Of a stretch of DNA of 10,427 bases, positions 1 to 10,427 are shown piece by piece. The translations under genes and the position numbers were made by a program. Location: the NCBI GenBank assembly GCA_023264915.1, contig JAHFUU010000039.1:1-10427 (forward strand), read 5' to 3'. The notes beneath the pieces were generated by a model that was not told where the DNA came from, searched no databases, and was given only the letters and a program-made list of their open reading frames with translations. This DNA is from Microthrixaceae bacterium (lineage in GTDB: Bacteria > Actinomycetota > Acidimicrobiia > Acidimicrobiales > Acidimicrobilacustridaceae). Within the stretch, counting starts at the first letter, position 1. Each line of letters opens with the position of its first letter.

Positions 1-1009
1 AGCTGCGGGCACCACCCACGCTCACCGCCGTGATGGTCGAGGTGTCGTACCTGTCGAAGTCGGGATGGTGCAGGATCGGGATCAGGTGGGCCGGTGTGCC
101 CGAGATCGAGGTGACACCCTCGCGCTGGATCAGCTCGAGCACGGGCAAGGGTCGGTACCTGTCGACCAGCACCATCGGTATGCCCGCCAGTGCGCACTGG
201 TAGGTGGTGAAGTGCCCGAAGCTGTGGGTCATCGGCGAGCATGCCAGGTTCACCGTGCCGGGTGACATGTTGGCGATCAGCTGTGACATGGTCTTGAAAG
301 CCGAGATGAGCGTGTTGTGGGTGTGCAGGAACCCTTTGGGATCACCCTCGGTCCCGGAGGTGAAGTTGAGGTAGAAGACGTCGTCGGGATCGATGACGAT
401 GCCCTCCAGCCGGTCAAGGTGCTGGCGGCCGTCCGTGACGAGGTCCTCGAGGCTCCATTCACCCTCTCCTGGCGGCCGTTGCGCTCGGGCCACTGCGATC
501 CCTCGCAACAGCGGCAGGGCGGCTCGTGCCCTTCGCATCTCGGCCAGGTAGTCATGGCCTTCGAAGGTGTCCGGGACCACGGCGAAGTTCGTCTCGCAGA
601 ACCCCAGCAGCGATCTGAGCTCGCGTTCGCGGAACACGCAGTGGGTCGGTTGGATGACTGCCCCGATCCGGCTGAGGGCGATCTGCAGCTCGGCGAGCTC
701 GATCCAGTTGGGAAGCTGCACGGCGACGATGTCGCCGCTGGTGACACCCATGCCCGACAGGCCCGCGGCGAGCGCGTCGGACTCGTCCTTCAGCTCGGCG
801 AAGGTGAGACGGCGCTCTGGGCTGATGACAGCCACCTTGTCCGGGTTGGCGGCGACGGTCTGGTCGAAGAGCTCGTGCAGGGTCTGGTCGAACCACATCC
901 CAGCATCGATGAATCGCTGGCGGTAAGCAGGGTGAAAGCGCGGGAACCGTGAGCTTCGGGTGCCCGTTGGTCGGGTGGCTTGTCCGGGCTCAGCGGAGGC
1001 ACGGGTCAT
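1..1009 (-). CDS. AMP-forming acyl-CoA ligase (ANL family), 5' part only
   Basis: Acyl-CoA synthetases of this family activate a carboxylic acid with ATP to an acyl-adenylate and then form the CoA thioester. The first 336 residues are visible; the frame is open through the left edge, so the C-terminal domain with the catalytic lysine lies outside. Seen here: the P-loop-like A3 motif FTSGTEGDPKG at about residues 216-226 and the SPMTHSF segment at about 258-264, in the position of the family's aromatic/His substrate-side motif. The N-terminus (WFDQTLHELFDQTV, about 39-52) resembles medium-chain and alicyclic acid CoA ligases of the AliA type; substrate is unknown. The ATG at 1009 has a GGAG 8 nt upstream (1018-1021). 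It lies downstream of the SRPBCC gene on the same strand with a 198-nt gap and has its own promoter candidate. Family confidence is high, substrate confidence low. Confidence 0.94.
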   Translation of the reverse strand, partial: MTRASAEPGQATRPTGTRSSRFPRFHPAYRQRFIDAGMWFDQTLHELFDQTVAANPDKVAVISPERRLTFAELKDESDALAAGLSGMGVTSGDIVAVQLPNWIELAELQIALSRIGAVIQPTHCVFRERELRSLLGFCETNFAVVPDTFEGHDYLAEMRRARAALPLLRGIAVARAQRPPGEGEWSLEDLVTDGRQHLDRLEGIVIDPDDVFYLNFTSGTEGDPKGFLHTHNTLISAFKTMSQLIANMSPGTVNLACSPMTHSFGHFTTYQCALAGIPMVLVDRYRPLPVLELIQREGVTSISGTPAHLIPILHHPDFDRYDTSTITAVSVGGARS

Positions 1010-1038
1010 GGATGTTGCTCCACTCGATGGTTGCAGTC

Positions 1039-1062
1039 CGTTAACTTAGTCGGATTCAGTTA
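1039..1062 (-). promoter_or_regulatory. Operator-like site B at the ligase promoter
   Basis: On the minus strand this reads ACTGAAT, five bases (CCGAC), then TAAGTTAACG. It matches the site at 1695-1715 in 6 of 7 and 9 of 10 positions of the two blocks, with one extra spacer base. It is also an imperfect palindrome, TAACT (1042-1046) against AGTTA (1058-1062). It touches the proposed -10 and covers the predicted start, as expected for a repressor site. The binding protein is not known. Confidence 0.45.
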
Positions 1063-1087
1063 TCTCGGCAAGACGCGCTGTTGTCAA
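1059..1087 (-). promoter_or_regulatory. Promoter candidate for the acyl-CoA ligase
   Basis: Read on the minus strand, a perfect TTGACA (1087-1082) is followed after 17 nt by GATAAC (1064-1059), which matches four of six bases of the -10 consensus. The predicted transcription start is near 1052, about 43 nt before the ligase ATG. This implies the ligase can be transcribed independently of the SRPBCC gene. Confidence 0.5.
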
Positions 1088-1144
1088 GCACCAACAGGTC
1101 ACAACGTCGGCGCCCTCAGGCTGCCGATGTGTGTGCGCTGTGCC

Positions 1145-1159
1145 GTGGGGTGGCCCCAC
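1145..1159 (-). terminator. Short GC hairpin after the SRPBCC gene
   Basis: GTGGGG (1145-1150) and CCCCAC (1154-1159) form a perfect 6-bp stem with a 3-nt loop, about 50 nt beyond the stop of the minus-strand SRPBCC gene. There is no T-run after it on the minus strand, so termination is only a weak possibility; it would fit with the separate promoter of the ligase. Confidence 0.2.
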
Positions 1160-1207
1160 CTCGGGGCGTGGCCTCGCCAGCGCTTCGTTGGCCGGCCTGG
1201 CACCGCG

Positions 1208-1639
1208 TCAGGCAGAGACGGCGGCCTCTATGCCGGGGATGATCATCCCGTAGAAGCCTTCGATGGCCGCGACCGAGTCGGCCGGGCTCAACGCGGCGGT
1301 CTCGAAGTTGCAGGTCCAATCGAGCTGGCACGTGTCAGTTCCCGTCTCGACCACGCGCATGGTCGCGTGGTACTCAGCCACCGGCAGCGGGTTGTTCTCC
1401 GGGATCCCATAGGAGATGGTCCGCTCGGCCGGGTCAAGCGCCTCGAGCACCTCTACGGTCGGTGGCAGGTTCACGTCGATGTACATCCGCCTGACCATGC
1501 CGGGCCCCTCGCCCTCGAAGTCGACCTTTGGAACTGCCGGGATCCATGTGAGGTTGGTGAAGTCTCCGATGACCGAGAAGAGCTTGTCGGCTGAGACACC
1601 GAAATCGTGCCGGACGTTTGCCTGTGCCTTGTCGCCCAT
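1208..1639 (-). CDS. SRPBCC-fold protein (polyketide cyclase/START-like)
   Basis: A 143-residue protein with the look of the SRPBCC/polyketide_cyc family: an N-terminal helix region VSADKLFSVIGDFTNLTWIP that follows the first strand, a Gly-rich turn (EGEGPGMVRR), alternating beta strands, and a long C-terminal helix (about 120-140). Members bind hydrophobic ligands in a deep cavity; some are cyclases, hydratases or lipid carriers, and nothing here fixes the reaction. Two ATGs are possible. The ATG at 1645 abuts the GGAAGGG ribosome site (1646-1652) with no spacing, while the ATG at 1639 sits 6 nt from it, so I chose 1639. The gene is first in the minus-strand arm of the divergent promoter region and precedes the acyl-CoA ligase, suggesting it handles the same hydrophobic acid or acyl-CoA; that link is inference. 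Confidence 0.84.
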   Translation of the reverse strand: MGDKAQANVRHDFGVSADKLFSVIGDFTNLTWIPAVPKVDFEGEGPGMVRRMYIDVNLPPTVEVLEALDPAERTISYGIPENNPLPVAEYHATMRVVETGTDTCQLDWTCNFETAALSPADSVAAIEGFYGMIIPGIEAAVSA

Positions 1640-1665
1640 GATCATCCCTTCCGTTTTCGGTTGCG

Positions 1666-1685
1666 GTCGACGCTTGTCGACGCTT
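1666..1685 (+). repeat. Tandem 10-bp direct repeat
   Basis: GTCGACGCTT occurs twice back to back (1666-1675 and 1676-1685) with no mismatch. Each copy contains the palindrome GTCGAC. The repeat lies immediately beside the 1686-1715 palindrome, and its length is about one helical turn. It could be a second protein site or a simple slippage duplication. Confidence 0.6.
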
Positions 1686-1702
1686 ACTTAATGGCGTAAA
1701 CT
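1674..1702 (+). promoter_or_regulatory. Promoter candidate for the plus-strand operon
   Basis: TTGTCG (1674-1679) and TAAACT (1697-1702) are separated by exactly 17 nt; each matches four of six consensus bases. The predicted start is near 1709, about 57 nt before the phosphotransferase ATG. The -10 lies inside the 1686-1715 palindrome. Confidence 0.42.
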
Positions 1703-1715
1703 TAACTCATTAAGT
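1686..1715. promoter_or_regulatory. Imperfect 30-bp palindrome, operator-like site A
   Basis: ACTTAATG (1686-1693) is perfectly inverted as CATTAAGT (1708-1715), and TAA (1697-1699) as TTA (1702-1704) about the same centre. A second register, ACTTAA (1700-1705) against TTAAGT (1710-1715), gives a perfect 6-4-6 palindrome. It sits between the divergent SRPBCC and phosphotransferase genes and covers core promoter elements of both. Position, size and dyad symmetry suit a TetR-type operator. The 1695-1715 part is repeated at the ligase promoter. Confidence 0.55.
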
Positions 1716-1718
1716 CAA
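1688..1718 (-). promoter_or_regulatory. Promoter candidate for the SRPBCC gene
   Basis: On the minus strand TTGACT (1718-1713) matches five of six -35 bases. The -10 is weaker: CCATTA (1694-1689, 18-nt spacer) or CATTAA (1693-1688, 19-nt spacer). Both elements overlap the palindrome, so one bound repressor could block both directions. Confidence 0.35.
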
Positions 1719-1765
1719 GGGTTGCCGAGAGGGCACCGAGAGGGCAGAGGGGTAGGGGCCAGCCG

Positions 1766-2761
1766 ATGGCGAGCGACGGACTACTCGACGTCGAGCGTGT
1801 CGAGCGATACCTGAGCGAGCAGGTTCCTGCGCTCGAGGTGCGCAAGGTGAACGCAGCAACCCGGTTCCCCGCGGGTCTGTCCTCATTGAGCTGTCGCATC
1901 GATCTGCTCACCGAGCAGGGTCTGCGTACCGTGGTCATACGGGCCGAGCCCGAGCACGGGGTCATCCCGCCCTATGACATCGTCGCGGAGTACGAGCTGA
2001 TGTTCCGTGTCAGCCAGGGGGGCCTTCCAGTCCCTGAGATGCTGCACCTCGAAGCTGATCCTGAGGTGTTCGGAACCCGGTTCATGGTCATGTCATACCT
2101 GGAAGGTGAGATGTTCCGCAGCAGTGACCCGCGAGTCGAAGCCGATGCGGCCCTTGCCGAGCAGCTGAAGTTCCACTTCGTCGAGATGCTTGCTCGCATC
2201 CACCTCTTCGACGGTCACGGCCTCCCCCTGTTCACCGACGCGGCTGAAGCGGCGCGGGCCGAGGTCCGAGCGTGTCGCCGCCGCCTGGCCGAGACCCAGG
2301 TGCTGCCCAACCCGGCCTTGGAACACGCGCTGGACGTGTTGGAGGCAAACGCTCCGCCTGGGCAACGGCAGGTGCTGCTGCATGGCGACTACCGCCTGCC
2401 CAACCTCAAGTGGCGCGACGGGAAGCTCGTGGGGATCCTCGACTGGGAGCTGGCACGTGTCGGTGACCCGATCAGTGACGTGTGCTTCACCCAGACGGTC
2501 GGGATAGGCGCCTGCTCGATCACCGGGGACCTGCTCGACCGGTACCTGGATCTCACCGGTTTCGACGTCGACGATCAGCGACTTGCGTACTACCAGTTGC
2601 TCGAGATGGTCAAGGGGACGATCATCGGCTTGGCCGCCGCCAAGGACATCCTCAACGGTGGCTCGGATCTGCGCCTGCTGTCAGTCGCTGGTCTGGCGGC
2701 GTCCGCGGTACCGGTCGTGGGAATGCTCGAACAGTCCGTCGAGCGGGTGGAGGCCAGGTGA
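1766..2761 (+). CDS. APH-family phosphotransferase, hydroxyacyl-CoA kinase-like
   Basis: A 331-residue aminoglycoside-phosphotransferase-fold kinase, full length for the group found beside acyl-CoA enzymes (the APH parts of ACAD10/ACAD11, and LvaA). Visible motifs: N-lobe strand VVIRAEP (about 56-62) with Arg in the usual Lys region, helix EYELMF (75-80), Brenner motif LLHGDYRLPN (204-213) with catalytic D208 and N213, and the metal-binding ILDWELA (224-230) with D226. In LvaA and ACAD10/11 the domain phosphorylates the 4-hydroxyl of a hydroxyacyl-CoA (established for those proteins); that role here is inference from family and context, and antibiotic modification seems unlikely. The ATG follows purine-rich AGGGG (1754-1758) by 7 nt. 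It is the first gene of the plus-strand operon and is followed after 4 nt by the 149-aa partner-like gene. Confidence 0.9.
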   Translation: MASDGLLDVERVERYLSEQVPALEVRKVNAATRFPAGLSSLSCRIDLLTEQGLRTVVIRAEPEHGVIPPYDIVAEYELMFRVSQGGLPVPEMLHLEADPEVFGTRFMVMSYLEGEMFRSSDPRVEADAALAEQLKFHFVEMLARIHLFDGHGLPLFTDAAEAARAEVRACRRRLAETQVLPNPALEHALDVLEANAPPGQRQVLLHGDYRLPNLKWRDGKLVGILDWELARVGDPISDVCFTQTVGIGACSITGDLLDRYLDLTGFDVDDQRLAYYQLLEMVKGTIIGLAAAKDILNGGSDLRLLSVAGLAASAVPVVGMLEQSVERVEAR

Positions 2762-2765
2762 CACC

Positions 2766-3215
2766 GTGATCTTGTTGGACTCGACACAGACGCTTTCCGC
2801 TGTGAGGCGTTCGCTGGAGACGCACGTGCTGGGCGTGCTCGACGACAGCTTCGCCAGGCTTCAGGTTCTGGCCGCGATGAAGGCACTCGATGACGTCATC
2901 GACCGCTTGCAGCGCGGAGACCCCATCGATCGCGCAAACGAACGCGTCGAGGCTGGTCTCAGGTCCCTCGCCGACTCGGTCCGCGGTGAGTCACCGGGAT
3001 TCGCAGAATCGATCGACTCACTGTTGTCGAGTGCGGCATCGGTGGACCAACCCCGCGATCGGGCGCGTGTCCTGGGTGAGGGCAACACGGAGCTGATCCG
3101 CCGACATGACCCCGCGAGCCGGCGGCTCGTGGACTTCCTGAACGGAGAGGCGGCGACGGTCACCCTCGAGGACAGCACCTGGATGTGCCAGGAGGCGATC
3201 GAATCGCTCCAGTGA
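2766..3215 (+). CDS. Small helical protein, possible kinase partner (LvaB-like position)
   Basis: A predicted 149-residue, almost entirely helical, soluble protein with no catalytic motif that I recognise. The GTG at 2766 is chosen because it lies 12 nt after GGAGG (2749-2753) and just past the kinase stop; the frame is open further upstream only as a shadow inside the kinase. The first 50 residues run VRRSLETHVLGVLDD, then LQVLAAMKALDDVIDRLQRG. This heptad-like layout recalls LvaB and the small DUF6285-type proteins encoded directly after LvaA-like kinases, which are needed for kinase activity in P. putida. That is resemblance by eye plus position, not proven homology. Residues from about 90 (DRARVLGEGNTELIRRHDP) onward are not recognised. 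The 4-nt gap implies coupled translation with the kinase. Confidence 0.75.
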   Translation: MILLDSTQTLSAVRRSLETHVLGVLDDSFARLQVLAAMKALDDVIDRLQRGDPIDRANERVEAGLRSLADSVRGESPGFAESIDSLLSSAASVDQPRDRARVLGEGNTELIRRHDPASRRLVDFLNGEAATVTLEDSTWMCQEAIESLQ

Positions 3216-3225
3216 CCGAGCAACA

Positions 3226-3262
3226 GCGCTGCCACGTCAGCAGGGTCACCTGAGGGCAGCGC
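3226..3262 (+). other. Intergenic hairpin
   Basis: GCGCTGCC (3226-3233) is perfectly inverted as GGCAGCGC (3255-3262), with a nested CAGG-GTCA-CCTG stem-loop at 3241-3252. It fills most of the 91-nt gap before the first SDR. No T-run follows, so it more likely affects RNA stability or processing, or partial attenuation, than full termination. Confidence 0.4.
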
Positions 3263-3306
3263 CAGTTCACCTACAGACACAGCGAAGGCAATGCCAAGGA
3301 GGGCAA

Positions 3307-4077
3307 ATGGAGATCTCACTTCAGGGACGGGTCGCGATCGTGACCGGTGGCGGGAGCGGATTGGGTCGCGGCTTCGCCAGGTCGCTGGCTGGTTCGGGAG
3401 CCGCGGTCGCGGTCACGGGCCGGCGTGCGGAGATGCTTGCCGAGACCGTCGAGGAGATCAACGGTGCCGGGGGCCAAGCGCTCGCGGTCAGCTGCGACGT
3501 CCGCTCGCGGGAGCAGGTCGACGAGTGCGTGCAGAGGATCGTCGAATGGAAAGGTGGAGTTGACATCCTCGTGAACAACGCCGGCGTGTACCCGCCGATG
3601 CCGTTCTTGATGGTCGAGGAGTCCCAGTGGCTCGATGTCATGGACACCAACATCAACGGCCCGTTCCGTTTCTCCCAAGCGTGCGCGAAGGTCATGGTTC
3701 CCAAGAGCTACGGCCGCATCATCAACATCCTGTCACCGTCGGCACTGCTCGGCTTTGGGATGGTCGCCGCCTACGGCACCTCCAAGGGCGCGCTCGCTTC
3801 GATGACTCGCAACCTCGCGATCGAGCTGGGCCCAATGGGGATCACAGTCAACTCGCTCGCGCCTGGAGTGGCGGCCACCGAGACCTTCGTAGGCTCGTTC
3901 ACCGAGTTCGGTGTGCAGCTGATCAGTGACCGGCTGGCCCTCAACAGAGCTTGTGCCGACGACGATCTCAGCGCCGCGCTCGTGCTGCTCGCGGCCGAGG
4001 AGTCGCGCTACATCACCGGTGCCACGATCTGTGTCGACGGTGGAATGACCAGCACCTTCGGCCTCGGTGGTGCGTGA
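3307..4077 (+). CDS. Classical SDR oxidoreductase, probably NADP(H)-dependent
   Basis: A 256-residue short-chain dehydrogenase/reductase of ordinary classical length. Seen: the nucleotide motif TGGGSGLG (13-20), NNAG (90-93), the full catalytic tetrad N115, S143, Y156 and K160 (YGTSK), the PG turn (186-187) and a typical C-terminal [12 protein letters not shown]. At the end of the second strand the sequence is VTGRR (36-40): no acidic residue and two arginines, which in this family favours NADP(H). It probably interconverts a hydroxyl and a ketone on an acyl chain or acyl-CoA; the substrate is unknown. AAGGAGGG (3296-3303) gives a strong ribosome site. Its stop overlaps the start of the next SDR by one base (TGATG), so the two should be made in linked amounts. 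Confidence 0.95.
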
Positions 4078-4832
4078 TGGGCGCATATGACGGCAGGGTC
4101 GCATGGGTGACCGGCAGCGGTTCGGGAATCGGTCGGGCAACAGCACGAGAGCTCGCCTCACAAGGCGCCTCGGTGTTGATCTCGGACCTAGATGTGCAAG
4201 GCGCCGGGGAAACTGTGGCGCTCATCGAGTCTGACGGCGGGAACGCGATGGCAGTCGAGTGCGACGTCACCGACCTCGCCCAATGCGAGGCGGCAGTCGC
4301 TGCGGTCGAAGCCAACTGGGGCCGCCTCGACGTTGCAGTTGCAAATGCCGGCATCGTCGGTTTCGGATCCGTCGAGATGACCACCGAGGAGGACTACCTG
4401 CGTGTCGTCGACGTCGATCTCCTCGGTGTGTTCAAGACTGCCAAGGCGGCGATTCCTGCCATGAAGCGTGCCGGTGGGGGAGCGATGGTGTTCCTCTCCA
4501 GCGTCGAGGGCCTCGTCGGCAACGCGCTGCTGCCGGCCTATGTGGCCTCCAAGACAGCTCTGTTGGGGCTGTGCCGATCTCTGGCTGCTGAAGGGGCGCC
4601 GTCGGGCATAAGGGTCAACTGCGTGAACCCCGGTTACATCAAGAGCCCCATGACCGACCCGTTGGATGCAGCCATGGGAATCGCGTCCATGATGGCCGAC
4701 CTGACACCGATGGGGCGCGTCGGCGTTCCCGAGGAGGTTGCTTCGGTGATCGCGTTCTTGTGCAGCGATGCGGCGGGATATGTCACCGGCCAGCACCTCG
4801 CAGTCGACGGCGGGATGACCGCGATCCGCTAG
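4077..4832 (+). CDS. Classical SDR oxidoreductase, probably NAD(H)-dependent
   Basis: A 251-residue SDR. Seen: TGSGSGIG (12-19), ANAG (89-92), S142, Y155 and K159 (YVASK), PG (185-186) and [13 protein letters not shown] near the end. ISDLD (35-39) puts D37 at the tip of strand 2, the usual sign of NAD(H) preference, the opposite of its neighbour. The position of the tetrad asparagine is D114 (VDVDLLGVF), which may lower activity or change the proton relay. The start at 4077 is set by the TGATG overlap with the preceding stop; the open frame running further upstream is a shadow inside the first SDR. It probably catalyses another hydroxy/keto step in the same pathway, possibly a beta-hydroxyacyl-CoA oxidation; substrate unknown. 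Confidence 0.93.
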
Positions 4833-4879
4833 CACCACCGGGTACCAACCCAGCCCACGATCCTCACCAGGAGGTCACG

Positions 4880-5419
4880 ATGCCGATCGAGAACTACGAA
4901 GACGTCAGCAACTACGCGCTGGATCCAGACCAGCAGGAGGAGTTGCTCAGATCCCAGAAGGAGGCCAGCTTCATCTGGGGCACCAAGGACCATTGGCCTG
5001 TAGGGGTCATCATGAGCTACGTCTGGCGCGACGGCAGCTTCTGGCTCACGGCCACCACTCAGCGAAAGCGCATCGCGGCGCTGCGCCGTGACAACCGTGT
5101 GACTGTCATCGTCTCGGGCATGGGCACTCCAGTCGGTCCGTCCACGTCGGCCACTGCCAAGGGGCGGTGCTTCTTCCACGACGACGAGGACACCAAGGCC
5201 TGGTTCTACCCGGCGCTCTCAGAGGCGGTTCTGGGCGGCACCGGTCCGCTCACCGACATGTTCACCCAGATGCTCGACTCCGAACGCCGTGTCATCCTCG
5301 AAGTCGTACCTGAGAAGTGGATCACCTTCGACGCCTCGAAGATGATGGCCGACTCCCTTGAAGCCTGGACCACCGCAGCTCAGGGCGGCAGCGGCCCATC
5401 AGGAGTCGATCTGCCCTAG
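4880..5419 (+). CDS. Pyridoxamine 5'-phosphate oxidase-like split-barrel protein (FMN/F420 class)
   Basis: A 179-residue protein with the sequence pattern of the PPOX-class split beta-barrel family: a helical start (DPDQQEELLRSQKEASFIWG), then paired strands PVGVIMSYVWRDGSFWLTA (40-58), RKRIAALRRDNRVTVIV (62-78) and a terminal EVVPEKWITFD (141-151). Actinobacterial members bind FMN, F420 or heme and many are reductases of unknown substrate; I cannot tell which cofactor is used. AGGAGGT (4869-4875) precedes the ATG by 4 nt, and the frame upstream of this is a shadow over the end of the SDR. It lies 47 nt after the second SDR in the same orientation, so it is probably part of the operon. An FMN- or F420-dependent step on an unsaturated acyl intermediate is one guess, no more than that. 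Confidence 0.85.
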   Translation: MPIENYEDVSNYALDPDQQEELLRSQKEASFIWGTKDHWPVGVIMSYVWRDGSFWLTATTQRKRIAALRRDNRVTVIVSGMGTPVGPSTSATAKGRCFFHDDEDTKAWFYPALSEAVLGGTGPLTDMFTQMLDSERRVILEVVPEKWITFDASKMMADSLEAWTTAAQGGSGPSGVDLP

Positions 5420-5518: not shown

Positions 5519-5575
5519 ATGAGATCCCCACGTCGAACCCCTCCCGGCTGCGGCGCAAGGCGGGCGTGGTCATGA
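5519..5575 (+). CDS. Possible 18-codon leader ORF coupled to the hydrolase
   Basis: ATG at 5519 opens a frame of 18 codons (MRSPRRTPPGCGARRAWS) whose TGA (5573-5575) overlaps the hydrolase ATG (5572) in an ATGA junction. An AGGG lies about 8 nt before the leader ATG, whereas the hydrolase ATG has only a weak AAGG. Re-initiation from the leader would explain how the hydrolase is translated. The peptide is Arg- and Pro-rich with one Cys; no independent function is suggested. It could also be chance, because GC-rich DNA makes short open frames easily. Confidence 0.3.
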   Translation: MRSPRRTPPGCGARRAWS

Positions 5576-6825
5576 GCCTTCATGAAGACGCCGAGCGGAT
5601 GTGGACCAGCGAAGAGCCGATCATGAACCACATGGTCGGGCCCGGCACCGACATCGACGAGGTGGATGAGGGCCTCGCGCTGATCCTCGCCTTCGGCAAC
5701 GTGATGCCGGTGCGCACCGGCGACGGACTGGTGCTCGTCGACACGTCGACCCCGTTCTCGGCGCCCACCATCCACAAGACGGTTCGATCGTGGTCACCGG
5801 ACCGCCTGAACACGGCGATCTTCACGCATGGACACGTCGACCACGTCGGAGGCGTCGGTCCCTTTGACGAGGAGTCAGACCAGAACGGGTGGCCTGCGCC
5901 AATGGTGGTGGCCCAAGAGGGAGTGCCCGCTCGATTGGATCGGTACCTGCTGACGAGGGGCCACAACAGCTCGATCAACCAGCGCCAGTTCTCCATTCCG
6001 GGCTTCGAGTTCCCGAGCGAGTGGCGCTATCCCGACCAGACCTACCGCGAGCAGCTCGACCTCGAGATAGGTGGGATCCGCTTCGAGCTCCACCACGCCC
6101 GTGGGGAGACCGACGATCACACCTGGGTGCACCTACCCGATCGCAAGGCGATCTACCCAGGTGACCTGTTCATCTGGTGCGTTCCCAACGCGGGCAACCC
6201 CCAGAAGGTTCAGCGGTTCGCCGCTGACTGGGCCGTGGCGCTGCGAGCCATGATCGACCAGGAAGCCGAAGTGCTCATCCCGAGCCACGGGCTACCCGTG
6301 TTCGGTGCTGACCGAGTGCGCCAGGCTCTCGATGACACGGCTTCGCTGCTCGAATCACTCCATGAACAGACCGTCTCGCTGATGAACCAAGGCGTTCGCC
6401 TCAACGACATCCTCCACGCCGTGAAGGTCCCACCCGAGCTGACCACCCAGCCGTATCTCCAGGCGACCTATGACGACCCCGAGTTCATCGTGCGCAACAT
6501 CTGGCGCTACTACGGCGGCTGGTATGACGGTGACCCGGCGGCGTTGAAACCTGCACCCGCTGGTGCGCTGGCCAGAGAGATCGCTGATCTGGCAGGTGGC
6601 GCGCAGGCTCTGGCTGCACGCGCGGAGGCTCTGGTCGATGCGGGCGAGCTTCGCCTTGCGGGACACCTCGCCGAGCTTGCCGTAGAGGCACAACCCGGCG
6701 ACGCAGGACTTCATCGCGTACGGACTGCGGTGTACAGCGCCCGCGTGGCGGCCGAGCCGTCGTTGATGGCAAAGGGAGTGTTCGGTGCGGCAGCCCGAGA
6801 GTCAGCCGCGCGATCTGAACCCTGA
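5572..6825 (+). CDS. Metallo-beta-lactamase-fold hydrolase, short alkylsulfatase (SdsA/BDS1) type
   Basis: A 417-residue binuclear-metal hydrolase (419 if GTG 5566 is used). Probable metal ligands are the HGHVDH motif (86-91), E179 (GETDDH), D198 (YPGDLF) and H239 (IPSHGLPVFG). The E179-to-D198 spacing of 19 equals that of the two metal glutamates of SdsA1 as I remember them, though the second is Asp here, as in most MBL enzymes. From about 308, WRYYGGWYDGDPAALKP begins a helical region to about 410 that matches the alkylsulfatase dimerisation domain. The SCP2-like C-terminal domain of full alkylsulfatases is missing. Family members hydrolyse sulfate esters; other esters or thioesters remain possible. 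No signal peptide is seen, so it is probably cytosolic. It follows a 146-nt gap and is followed after 2 nt by the TetR gene. Confidence 0.9.
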   Translation: MSLHEDAERMWTSEEPIMNHMVGPGTDIDEVDEGLALILAFGNVMPVRTGDGLVLVDTSTPFSAPTIHKTVRSWSPDRLNTAIFTHGHVDHVGGVGPFDEESDQNGWPAPMVVAQEGVPARLDRYLLTRGHNSSINQRQFSIPGFEFPSEWRYPDQTYREQLDLEIGGIRFELHHARGETDDHTWVHLPDRKAIYPGDLFIWCVPNAGNPQKVQRFAADWAVALRAMIDQEAEVLIPSHGLPVFGADRVRQALDDTASLLESLHEQTVSLMNQGVRLNDILHAVKVPPELTTQPYLQATYDDPEFIVRNIWRYYGGWYDGDPAALKPAPAGALAREIADLAGGAQALAARAEALVDAGELRLAGHLAELAVEAQPGDAGLHRVRTAVYSARVAAEPSLMAKGVFGAAARESAARSEP

Positions 6826-6827
6826 AG

Positions 6828-7481
6828 ATGCCCGAGGCTCCAGCACCTGATCCAGCTCGAGCAGCTGAGACGAAGGGGAGGCGTACCCAGCGCCGGATCC
6901 TCGAAGCCGCGATCGCACATTTCGCCGCGGTCGGATATGACAGGGCCTCGGTCCCGGTCATCGCGAACCAGGTTGGAGTGAGCCACAGCACGCTCTACCA
7001 GCACTTCGGGCGCAAGGAGGACCTGTTCCGTGCCTCTGTGCAGGCTGATCTGAGCGCCTTGCTGTCCGAAGTGAGCCCGGCCCTTGAGTCCGCGGATCCA
7101 GCACCAGACCGCCTGGCAGGGCTCCTGTCAGGTCTGGTGGCGTTGACAGCCGACCATCCTCTGGCCCGTCGGGTTCTGTTGAACCTTGACGGGGACCAGG
7201 CCGAGGCCCTCCGTGACCTACCTGCGCTCGCGGCCCTGGAGCAACGCCTCGAATCTGTCGTCGTCGAGGGTCAGGCCAAAGGTGCACTTCGAGGAGATCT
7301 CGGCCCCAGGGTCACAGCCGAGGGTCTGTTGACCATCTGCCTCGCGCTGGTGGCGATCGGGATTCGCCTGGAAGGCCGAGACTTCCCTCGTGCCCGGGCA
7401 GCGGAGCGCTTCCTCCGAGAGGCGTTGGCGGCACCATCCCGGAGCCACGCGCCCGACCATCCGGCTTTCCCAATCACATGA
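6828..7481 (+). CDS. TetR-family transcriptional regulator
   Basis: A 217-residue TetR protein with the usual layout: after a flexible, Ala/Pro-rich first 16 residues comes the DNA-binding domain (RRTQRRILEAAIAHFAAVGY at 18-37, then the helix-turn-helix VPVIANQVGVSHSTLYQHF at 42-60 and the typical GRKEDLFRA). The helical ligand-binding half (about 70-205) has no assignable ligand. It starts 2 nt after the hydrolase stop without a clear ribosome site, so it is probably translated by coupling and made only when the operon is on. Autoregulation through the palindrome at 1686-1715 and the related ligase site is a reasonable inference. It is the last plus-strand gene, with 29 nt to the convergent gene and no terminator seen. 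Confidence 0.93.
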   Translation: MPEAPAPDPARAAETKGRRTQRRILEAAIAHFAAVGYDRASVPVIANQVGVSHSTLYQHFGRKEDLFRASVQADLSALLSEVSPALESADPAPDRLAGLLSGLVALTADHPLARRVLLNLDGDQAEALRDLPALAALEQRLESVVVEGQAKGALRGDLGPRVTAEGLLTICLALVAIGIRLEGRDFPRARAAERFLREALAAPSRSHAPDHPAFPIT

Positions 7482-7510: not shown

Positions 7511-8056
7511 TCAGGCGCTGGCGGCAACCGGCGGTGTTGCCTGGCCTGAGCCACCACCAGGGGGTTCCATGCCAGCCGTGGAGTCCAGGCCGCCGTGTGA
7601 GCCCGCATCAGGCCCTTGGGTGGCGCCTTGGTCCCCGGCGGCCTTGGCGGCGTCGCGGCGGGCGCCGAGGCGCCGCCGGGTGACGACGTTGCGGCGCTTG
7701 CGGTCACGGGGTGGCGGCACCTGGATCGTGGGCTCCACGGGCTGGGTGTCGTCGATGAGGAGGTGGATGCGCGCTCGAGCAACGAGCAGCGCAAACCGGC
7801 TGCCCCCTGTCAGCAGGGTCCGGTAGAGGCGCCACCGGTCAGGTGAGTGCCAGATGTAGTCGGCCAGGTGGCGCTCACCCAACAGACCGACGAAGTCAGC
7901 TATGTCGCCACCGTCAAGGACGATCATGTAGTCCCACTTGATGGGCTCGTCCATCGTCCCGCTGATGTAGAGCTTGTCTCCACTCTTGACGGTCTTGGCC
8001 TTGGACAGCCGCAGTGCGACCATTCGCTTGCCGAGTCCTTTGGATCGGAACTCCAT
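7511..8056 (-). CDS. Hypothetical protein with basic, low-complexity tail
   Basis: A 181-residue protein that I do not recognise. Residues 1-110 look like a folded mixed alpha/beta domain (MVALRLSKAKTVKSGDKLY, KWDYMIVLDGGDIADFVGLL, WRLYRTLLTGGSRFALLVARARIHLL). Residues 117-134 are very basic (RDRKRRNVVTRRRLGARR), and the rest is a Gly/Pro/Ala/Ser/Gln tail likely to be disordered. No signal peptide or convincing membrane helix is seen, although 84-100 is hydrophobic. The ATG at 8056 shares a base with the stop of the upstream FAD enzyme (TGATG), so the two are co-translated and this protein probably serves that enzyme. The basic segment could bind RNA, DNA or acidic membrane; that is speculation. 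The longer frame starting upstream of this overlaps the FAD enzyme and was rejected. Confidence 0.75.
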   Translation of the reverse strand: MEFRSKGLGKRMVALRLSKAKTVKSGDKLYISGTMDEPIKWDYMIVLDGGDIADFVGLLGERHLADYIWHSPDRWRLYRTLLTGGSRFALLVARARIHLLIDDTQPVEPTIQVPPPRDRKRRNVVTRRRLGARRDAAKAAGDQGATQGPDAGSHGGLDSTAGMEPPGGGSGQATPPVAASA

Positions 8057-9684
8057 CAGCCCACCAGTCCTTTCGCACGTGCCTCGGTCACGAACTCGGG
8101 CTCCTCCCACCAGCGTTCGACACCAAGGTCATCTGCCACGACCCCCGCGGCGTTGTATCCACCAGCGAGGAGCACCATCCCGCCCGGCCACACGCTGGCA
8201 CCGGCCACATAGAGGTTCTCGATGGGTGTCCGGTATGAGGAGCAGTCCGGGTTTGGGCGGTTCGAGAGCATCTGGGTTGCGATGTATGCGCCGTGCTTGA
8301 TCGAGCCGCGTTTCATGCTCGGTAGCCGCGCAGCGGTGTACGCCGGGTTGTTCACGTACTGCCGGATGATCCTCGCGTCGGTGAGATTCGGTGCGTATCG
8401 CTTCCACGTGGCCAGGACCGAGTCGGCGACGTCGCATTCGATGTCTGGCCAGGTACCCAGTGAGCACTCGAAGGGGGCAAGCCCTTCCCAGCATGCGACA
8501 GCGCTTCCGGGCTCGACGTCTATGGGTGCCTGCATCGGGTCGAAGTCAGTCAGGTTGAACCCGGCTCCGATTGGCGTGAACCCGCCAGCCCTGACCGAAG
8601 CGATGTGGTCGAGGAGGTCATCGACCGTCTCGACCCCCATGATCTTGATCAGGGCCCGGTCAGCATCAGGATCGAACTGGGCGGCGGCCAGCTCGGGCCG
8701 TCGGTCCAGGGCGAAGTGGACGTTCAGCATGCTCGTGGACTCCCACTCCCACGACCGGGTGGTGTCCACCAGACCGCGTGACGCCTCGTTGCATGCTCGT
8801 TCGCCGACGAGCTGGAGGAAGGTCGTCTCGGGGTCGGTCGTGGCGATGACCTTCTTGGCCAAGATCTCACGGCCGCCCTCCAGGCGCACGCCAGTGGCCC
8901 TGGTGCCGTCAGTGAGGATCCTGTCAACCGTCGCGGCGCGCTCGAAGGAGGCACCGTTGCCGTTCGCGAACCGGGCAAGGGCGCCGGCCAGCTGGTGCGA
9001 GCCGTTGGCGATCACGGTCGCATGGAGGATGCGTTGGTAGAACAGGGGGAGCAGGAAACCCAGCCCGCCATCGGGATCCATGCCATACATGGTTCCGATG
9101 AACAACATGGCGGTCTTGAGGAGCTCGTTCTCGAACCCGGCTGCGTCGAGGGTCTCGAGGAAGGACTCCTCGGCCATCTCGTTGACGACCTGGCCCACGT
9201 CACTTGCCTCATATGACACGGCCATGTCCAGCAGAGGCATGGGCAACGAGAAGGTCGCCGGGATCAGTGCTTCGTTGACGATCGCGTACCAGTCCTCCAT
9301 CACCTCCACATACGCGTTGGCGTCATCCGGTGAGAACCGGGCGATGCTCTTGGCGGTGCGGGCGATGTCGGAGTAGAAGGTCATCGCCTTGTTGTCGTGG
9401 GTGAGGATCGTGGCGGCCACATCGGGCTTGCGGTAGGTGCAGCCCCAGCCCGCCAGGTCCAGGTCGGTGACCGCGGGGGCCACGTCCATCATCAGCATCA
9501 GCTTTGCGTGGGTGTTGAACCGGAAGCCGGACCACTCCTCGGTCACCAGGCCCCCGCCGAGCTCGTGGTGCCGCTCGACCACCAGCACCTTCACGCCGGC
9601 GCGGGCGAGGTATGCCGCCGCTACCAGACCGTTGGGTCCCCCACCGATGATGATCACGTCGTGCTCGTCGTCGGTGGTGGTCAT
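8056..9684 (-). CDS. FAD-dependent oxidoreductase, phytoene dehydrogenase-like
   Basis: A 542-residue flavoprotein of the phytoene desaturase/carotenoid isomerase-like group. Seen: the Rossmann dinucleotide motif [10 protein letters not shown] (10-19), the ribose-binding acidic residue E37 in [11 protein letters not shown], a long substrate domain, and the C-terminal FAD contact [13 protein letters not shown] with [14 protein letters not shown] (about 490-521). Such proteins desaturate, isomerise or saturate polyene or other hydrophobic substrates; many actinobacterial members are uncharacterised and need not act on carotenoids. No other carotenoid gene is in view. The ATG at 9684 follows AGGAG by about 7 nt; an upstream in-frame ATG at 9786 would overlap the previous gene and add 34 unrelated residues. 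It lies 85 nt after a paralogue and is coupled to the small unknown gene downstream. Confidence 0.9.
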
Positions 9685-9769
9685 GTCGAGCTCCTGTGGC
9701 CGCCTGGGCCAATCGGGTGCGGCCCACCTCCATGAGGGGTGCTCTCTGCCAGGCCAACCAGAAGGTGTC

Positions 9770-10427
9770 TCATCGGATGGGAGCACCTATCTCGATCCCT
9801 CGCCTTGCCAGCTCCTCGCGACCTGCCTGCATCGCCTGGTGACGCCACCAGTCCTGACCCTCTCTCACCCCGAGGTCATCGGCCACCACGGTGGCAGCGA
9901 CGTAGCCGGCACCGAGGGTTGTGGTTCCGAAGGGCCAGATCGAGTTGGACAGGTACAGATTCGGGAATGGCGTCCGCGGGGCACCGCAGCCAGCGAACGG
10001 ACGGTGGGTGCCGTAGAACTCGAGCCCGACTGCACCACTGGTGGTGCTGCCCATCACCTGGCTCGGGTTCTTCCGGTAGTAGTCAAGCGGCGAGTTGCAG
10101 TAGCGGGCAGTGACGGAGTCCATCAGCCCGGGGTTGTACTCGCGCAGCAGGGCGTCCACCTTGTCGCCATAGGACTCGCGGATGTCATCCCAGGCTTCGG
10201 GGCCACCATCGGCGGGAAGCTGGTAGGGGACGTTCGCCCAGGACATCAGCGTGTAGTTGCCAGGAGGGGCCTGTGTCGCGTCTGCGAGGGCGTACCCCTG
10301 CACCGAGAGCCCCGCCACGATCGGCGGGTCGGGAAGCTCGGTGGCCTCGAGGCAGTGCCGGAGGCGATGGATGTCCTCGGTCGACTCAACTCCATAGTTG
10401 AACCCGAACGCCGTATCACACCCTTCG
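9770..10427 (-). CDS. FAD-dependent oxidoreductase, phytoene dehydrogenase-like, 3' part
   Basis: The C-terminal 218 residues or so of a second flavoprotein; the frame has no stop up to the right edge, so the start and FAD-binding N-terminus are outside. The end [31 protein letters not shown] lines up with the C-terminal FAD-binding part of the downstream gene, and the upstream [14 protein letters not shown] aligns roughly with its [14 protein letters not shown]. The two are therefore paralogues in tandem, though clearly diverged: [14 protein letters not shown] here against [14 protein letters not shown] there. Both probably work on related hydrophobic substrates or form a complex. Several in-frame GTG codons exist (for example at 10318), but the homology continues past them, so none is the true start. 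Confidence 0.88.

Follow-up and report, generated by a model that had tools for sequence, protein, structure and literature searches.

A conserved kinase and flavoprotein gene cluster that may dehydrate isoprenoid side chains in uncultured bacteria

The window considered here is a stretch of 10,427 nucleotides from an uncultured actinobacterium of the class Acidimicrobiia (contig JAHFUU010000039.1), and at its heart lies a gene for an APH-fold kinase (1766-2761, + strand). I tentatively favor the view that the window holds part of a conserved catabolic cluster whose substrate is an isoprenoid side chain bearing a hydroxyl, most likely that of a sterol or a sterol-like terpenoid, and that ATP-driven dehydration would remove this hydroxyl with no need for oxygen. 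I favor it because of a flavoprotein pair, the kind of acyl-CoA dehydrogenase (ACAD) and the Rv3520c-type LLM proteins encoded by the window's relatives, the molybdenum (Mo) enzymes encoded elsewhere in the same genomes, and what is described in PMC8449060. Gene content, conservation, residue signatures, and genomic association were all computed here.

A gene set that recurs, and what its enzymes resemble

A scan of named genomes for the kinase family kept 80 loci of 520. Nine of these (L020-L028) encode kinases 50-56% identical to that of the window, after which identity falls to 35% or less. Together with the window itself and L100 (from genome G127), they make up a cluster set of 11 loci, L101 being a duplicate of L027. 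Close kinases (E 1e-60) are found in 3 of the 296 genomes of the window's class and in 9 of the 90 of the class to which G301 belongs. When orthologs of the neighboring genes were assigned over the 11 loci, by gene calls and BLAST, the gene set was seen to recur, a check that the first-pass annotation of the window had called for. In two other metagenome-assembled genomes (L022, L100), the genes for a CoA ligase, an SRPBCC protein, the kinase, a small protein, two SDRs, and a PPOX-like protein occur in identical order and orientation, and so their grouping is more than chance.

Overlooked by the first-pass annotation, the minus-strand genes at the window's right end (7511-10426) are members of the same conserved set. 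They encode a flavoprotein subunit (8056-9684), a partner subunit (9770-10426), and, downstream of the pair, a small conserved protein (7511-8056) that has no Pfam match. The partner is a fragment and likewise has no Pfam match; a full-length relative falls among the FAD oxidoreductases. Sterol delta-24 desaturase and limonene dehydrogenase hold their flavin covalently via the histidine of G-F-L/R-X-N/S-T/L-H-A, and relatives of these enzymes occur in Acidimicrobiales and Deltaproteobacteria (PMC11061730, in excerpt). The window's flavoprotein has this type of motif, GFRFNTHA, at residue 53, and, counting it, nine of the nine cluster proteins of its kind whose N terminus is intact match. In the relatives, the partner subunit reads GVKVNLCA, with Cys for His, in seven of seven cases. 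The two subunits therefore differ, unlike the published enzymes, and GF[LR]x[NS][TL]HA is found in one of them only, not both. The inner flavoprotein is present at 10 of the 11 loci, 64-73% identical to the window's at nine of the ten others. The remaining locus, L027, has no ortholog but instead a 574-aa relative of 31% identity with the same flavin motif. Orthologs of the small 7511-8056 protein adjoin the flavoprotein at nine of the ten other loci, again not at L027.

Beyond the ligase, all six loci that extend so far (L020, L022, L025, L027, L028, L100) have LLM/luciferase-like genes, some of the Rv3520c type, and then two ACADs, judging by Pfam searches of the representatives in L022 and L100. 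The first-pass annotation had likened the window to the Lva route, in which a hydroxyacyl-CoA is phosphorylated and then loses its phosphate on an ACAD. It saw no such gene in the window, as a Pfam search of the window's proteins bears out, and it counted on finding one near the kinase in some relative. The relatives do have them, past the ligase, at six loci of six. By residue signature, however, what they encode does not look like a phosphate-eliminating enzyme of the LvaC/ACAD11 type. An Asp base and R626/H634/R637 are common to LvaC and ACAD10/11 (PMC12440821, in excerpt), and in ACAD11-like relatives I located these residues visually, in the stretches RLGPGR..HH and DGPDEVH. Among ten ACADs that adjoin other kinases, eight have this pattern and two a variant, but the RLGPGR..HH helix was found in none of the six cluster alpha subunits and not in the sole complete beta subunit. 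The alphas carry HERSGL and GGGT. With every frame scanned, proteins having both signature stretches appear at 36 of 71 distant-kinase loci and at none of the 11 cluster loci, and the LvaC-type signature is absent from all 406 predicted proteins of the cluster, flank, and Mo loci. Searched against the PDB, the cluster ACADs match Tcur3483 and Tcur3481 best, which are two proteins of a single entry, and 4x28 is next for the alpha subunit; I take all of these to be steroid side-chain enzymes. By sequence, then, the cluster ACADs look like a two-subunit pair akin to FadE26/27.

Genes for ethylbenzene-dehydrogenase-like Mo enzymes accompany the cluster in most genomes. TIGR03479 gives full-length matches in 9 of the 11 cluster genomes, the window's among them, with a best score per genome of 831-956 bits, all below the cut-off of 984.75. 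Eight Mo-positive cluster genomes have at least three matches each at E 1e-180, and the ninth, G306, has one (G305 being read as G010 in the Mo counts). One Mo alpha subunit, compared with the PDB, has the alpha subunit of ethylbenzene dehydrogenase as its top match (666 bits). In the window's genome (G000), a Mo operon (alpha, EB_dh, beta) lies on contig C85. Of 119 genomes sampled from the window's class, five have Mo matches, both kinase-positive ones (G000, G010) and three with no kinase. In G301's class, matches occur in 27 of 90 genomes, comprising all nine that are kinase-positive and 18 of the 81 others. The association of kinase with Mo enzyme has Fisher p values of 0.0014 (window's class) and 7e-6 (G301's class), which ignore shared ancestry and come from tables that hold neither G127 nor G298 (G127 lies outside the 119-genome sample).

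Some further observations touch the Mo genes. Nine uncultured genomes (G301, G304, G718, G738, G739, G750, G772, G785, G786) have at least eight matches each to Mo alpha subunits like those of type II dimethyl sulfoxide reductases (E 1e-180), recalling the multi-copy Mo dehydrogenases of Sterolibacterium. In G301, the gene for an APH kinase paralog shares 13 nt, given the predicted starts, with the downstream end of a gene for a Mo alpha subunit like that of ethylbenzene dehydrogenase (L156:9578-13641; C1:834578-838641), and this pair is a candidate for direct coupling of hydroxylase and kinase. Ecdysteroid-kinase-like (EcKL) proteins are encoded at L157:5446-6525 (G000, C85), where the gene converges on the Mo operon, and at L020:14294-15511, where the cluster kinase is some 3.3 kb away. 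They score 62.6 and 74.6 bits against a cut-off of 22.

The pathway I propose would run as follows. A side-chain hydroxyl, in most cluster genomes probably introduced from water by the Mo enzymes, would receive a phosphate from the APH-fold kinase working with the helical protein; elimination of the phosphate would leave an alkene, the net effect being a dehydration paid for by ATP. The covalent-flavin heterodimer would desaturate or hydroxylate allylic positions, the SDRs would oxidize the alcohol, the CoA ligase would activate the resulting acid, and the two-subunit ACAD with the F420/LLM enzymes would begin beta-oxidation. The substrate, the order of the steps, and which protein eliminates the phosphate are what I infer. 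In the sterol route, the enzyme that eliminates the phosphate is reported as unknown in the excerpted text of PMC8449060, and it is still "putative" in that of PMC11061730.

The kinase and its small partner

The kinase (E 2e-32) is likely, from its sequence, to act on the hydroxyl of a small molecule. Its residues His-Gly-Asp 206-208, Asn213, and Asp226-Trp-Glu are invariant in 29 sequences. The nearest solved relatives by sequence are the ACAD11 kinase domain, 3dxp, and Rv3168, with ACAD11 the closest that is characterized (2e-16 from a single sequence; 83 bits from the family profile). Against the PDB at E 1e-8, the family profile matched six sequences (3dxp at 85 bits, ACAD11 at 83, 25-HSK at 41) and no aminoglycoside kinase. 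The first-pass annotation was right, so far as PDB sequences go, to place the kinase nearer the ACAD10/11 type than the antibiotic kinases, and the grouping with antibiotic kinases that would have told against it did not appear. The kinase and 25-HSK have the same fold over their full length, at about 20% identity in the structural alignment, and 25-HSK, Rv3168, and 3dxp tie in their structural Z to the kinase.

The gene for the 149-aa partner (2766-3215, + strand) starts 4 nt past the kinase gene, and a small gene lies within 4 nt of the kinase at 10 of the 11 loci, L023 being unreadable there. The protein has no Pfam or NCBIfam match and is predicted to be all-helical (mean pLDDT 93); an alignment of 14 members has seven predicted helices. 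A profile of 15 members, compared with 53 DUF6285 sequences, gives a probability of 82% over 56 columns, while comparison with a single DUF6285 sequence is not significant (0.8%). The partner may be distantly related to DUF6285, whose genes lie directly 3' of many kinases of about 30% identity. The window's own genome has a separate pair of kinase and DUF6285 on contig C267. DUF6285 might in turn be LvaB, a 12-kDa protein (PMC6692424, in excerpt), going by size and by position after kinases. That is a weak identification, because at four loci (L051, L071, L085, L097) DUF6285 is succeeded by an ACAD, in the order known from lvaABC, that lacks the LvaC signature. The likening of kinase and small protein to LvaA and LvaB thus survives in part: the partner is conserved, helical, and faintly like DUF6285, but the cluster kinases form a clade separate from those paired with DUF6285.

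A similar arrangement is seen on contig C91 of G303, where two more kinases (L149:2197-5931 and 11886-13303) each overlap by 4 nt a 147-148-aa protein with no Pfam match. The two small proteins resemble each other, the pairs are at most 25 kb away from the main cluster kinase, and the first of the extra kinases is preceded by another ACAD pair.

Weighing the alternatives

Several facts weigh against side-chain dehydration as I have drawn it. 25-HSK comes last of the six profile matches, and in the single-sequence search it ranks 10th of 18 (26.5 bits), beneath four aminoglycoside kinases. From these rankings it follows that the kinase is not, by sequence, an ortholog of 25-HSK. Other kinases adjoin Mo genes (the paralog in G301, the EcKL protein in G000), and so phosphorylation of the 25-hydroxyl could fall to the product of a different gene. 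The published flavin desaturase bypasses the kinase step (PMC11061730, in excerpt). Two genomes with the cluster, G127 and G298, have TIGR03479 matches of only 197 and 258 bits, three genomes of the 119 have Mo enzymes with no kinase, and the Fisher values suffer from the limits given above. Finally, the model NF009479 for KstD, a marker of steroid-ring degradation, exceeds its cut-off in none of 17 genomes (11 cluster, 6 others), though 14 controls were also silent. Four of the 17, all cluster genomes, reach 422-508 bits against a cut-off of 793, and G000 has no match at 1e-100.

Suppose instead that the cluster works as Lva or ACAD10/11 does. The ligase would yield a hydroxyacyl-CoA (or a keto-acyl-CoA that an SDR reduces), the kinase and its helper would phosphorylate the 4- or 5-hydroxyl, and an ACAD would eliminate the phosphate to give an enoyl-CoA. 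The closeness of the kinase to ACAD11, the small helical protein beside it with its weak likeness to DUF6285, and the sharing of one strand-block by the ligase and two ACADs at all six long loci speak for this route. It is weakened because those ACADs belong to a two-subunit steroid type, with HERSGL in the alpha subunit, and because the residues of LvaC and ACAD10/11 occur in no protein of any cluster locus. The separate clade of the kinase and the uncertain link between DUF6285 and LvaB, with its four signature-less ACADs, also count against it. I judge it rather unlikely. The original idea of an Lva-like route for a hydroxy or keto acid therefore keeps the kinase resemblance, the small partner, and the presence of ACADs, and loses the ACAD type and the kinase clade. 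The flavoprotein pair, the LLM/F420 enzymes, and the Mo hydroxylases in the genomes are better matched by isoprenoid side-chain catabolism like that of Sterolibacterium than by a route of the levulinate type.

It is equally doubtful that the cluster breaks down some other terpenoid, or a polycyclic hydroxy compound unrelated to steroids, while the Mo enzymes of the same genomes act on different substrates. This would account for KstD scores below cut-off in 17 genomes of 17 and for the two cluster genomes lacking Mo enzymes, and limonene dehydrogenase does belong to the same flavoprotein family (PMC11061730, in excerpt). Yet the ACAD pair and the Rv3520c-type LLM proteins suggest steroid side chains, and the association with Mo enzymes holds in two bacterial classes. 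A resistance or detoxifying phosphotransferase that merely happens to sit within a catabolic cluster is scarcely credible, even though the kinase is of the APH family and APH(3')-IIa matches it at 5.6e-8 (single sequence); its score against the APH(3') model is 55 bits, with the cut-off at 205.

Side-chain dehydration thus remains the view I prefer. By analogy, the cluster may work like the Sterolibacterium pathway; since the kinase is by sequence no ortholog of 25-HSK and KstD is below cut-off, I liken the cluster to that pathway and do not count it as a member. A bolder version, which I regard as a long shot, is that uncultured Acidimicrobiia and Deltaproteobacteria/Myxococcota have separately evolved an F420-rich, oxygen-independent way of dismantling sterol side chains, with a kinase that is no ortholog of 25-HSK, a dedicated 149-aa protein, and a neighboring gene as the phospho-steroid lyase, be it that for the 149-aa protein, the 7511-8056-type protein, or the Cys/His flavoprotein pair.

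The remaining genes and the known systems

The window is the whole of contig C508, from a fragmented genome of 72% completeness in 577 contigs, and so the contig ends truncate two genes: the ligase loses its C-terminal part and the outer flavoprotein its N-terminal part. The genes named by the first-pass annotation are all present as open reading frames of the families it gave. The AMP-binding acyl-CoA ligase (2-1009, - strand; PF00501, 178 bits, E 3e-52) has cyclohexanecarboxylate-CoA ligase as its top NCBIfam match, far under cut-off. It is found at 8 of the 11 loci, 59-73% identical in seven of the ten others; the contigs of L021 and L026 stop before it, and gene calls and BLAST found none in L023. 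Orthologs of the SRPBCC (Polyketide_cyc2) protein (1208-1645, - strand; PF10604, 67 bits) are in L022 and L100, with none called at the other eight loci. The first SDR (3307-4077, + strand), assigned by Pfam and NCBIfam, overlaps the second (4074-4832, + strand) by 4 nt, and their orthologs in L022, L027, and L100 are 68-70% and 58-66% identical. The PPOX/F420-type flavin-fold protein (4877-5419, + strand), also with orthologs in L022 and L100, falls short of cut-off for both PNPOx_N (27.0 bits, cut-off 28.1) and TIGR03618 (39.6 bits). The MBL-fold hydrolase with an alkyl-sulfatase dimerization domain (5566-6825, + strand; Pfam) lies outside the conserved set, no ortholog having been called at the ten other loci. 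A TetR-type regulator follows (6828-7481, + strand; TetR_N, 52.6 bits). At L020:2813-5497, ligase and LLM are seemingly fused in one frame of 894 aa; they are two genes in relatives.

Removal of a hydroxyl at the expense of ATP, by phosphorylation and elimination, has been described for few systems. The short list of neighbors in the conserved cluster offers concrete candidates for the phosphate-eliminating enzyme of the sterol route, and, if the proposal is true, oxygen-independent breakdown of sterol side chains reaches uncultured actinobacteria and Deltaproteobacteria/Myxococcota.

How does the cluster compare with what is known? The oxygen-independent route of Sterolibacterium denitrificans employs the Mo enzyme S25DH, 25-HSK, a 25-phosphosteroid lyase, a delta-24 desaturase, and a CoA ligase. 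25-HSK and an unknown lyase are described in PMC8449060 (in excerpt), with proteins annotated as acyl-CoA synthetase, phytoene dehydrogenase, and luciferase in the same preparation. The cluster shares with this route the fold group of the kinase, the covalent-flavin motif family, the CoA ligase, LLM proteins, and, in 9 of 11 genomes, ethylbenzene-dehydrogenase-like Mo enzymes. It differs in the low identity of its kinase to 25-HSK, the helper gene within 4 nt, the several F420-type enzymes, the Cys that replaces the flavin His in one flavoprotein subunit, and the phyla concerned. Likened by motif to CtmAB, the limonene dehydrogenase of Castellaniella, the flavoproteins have in common with it the flavin motif (in one subunit) and paired genes; unlike CtmAB, they are linked to a kinase and beta-oxidation genes, and the second subunit has Cys. 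Rv3168 (3ats) and Reut_A1007 (3dxp), APH-fold kinases whose PDB records name no function, are the nearest folds and among the nearest sequences. With lvaABCDE of P. putida and with ACAD10 and ACAD11, the cluster has in common an APH kinase with a small protein, a CoA ligase, SDRs, and, in relatives, ACADs; it departs from them in its FadE26/27-like pair devoid of the phosphate-handling signature and in a kinase clade apart from the DUF6285-paired kinases. The cluster resembles the known levulinic-acid pathway but does not match it.

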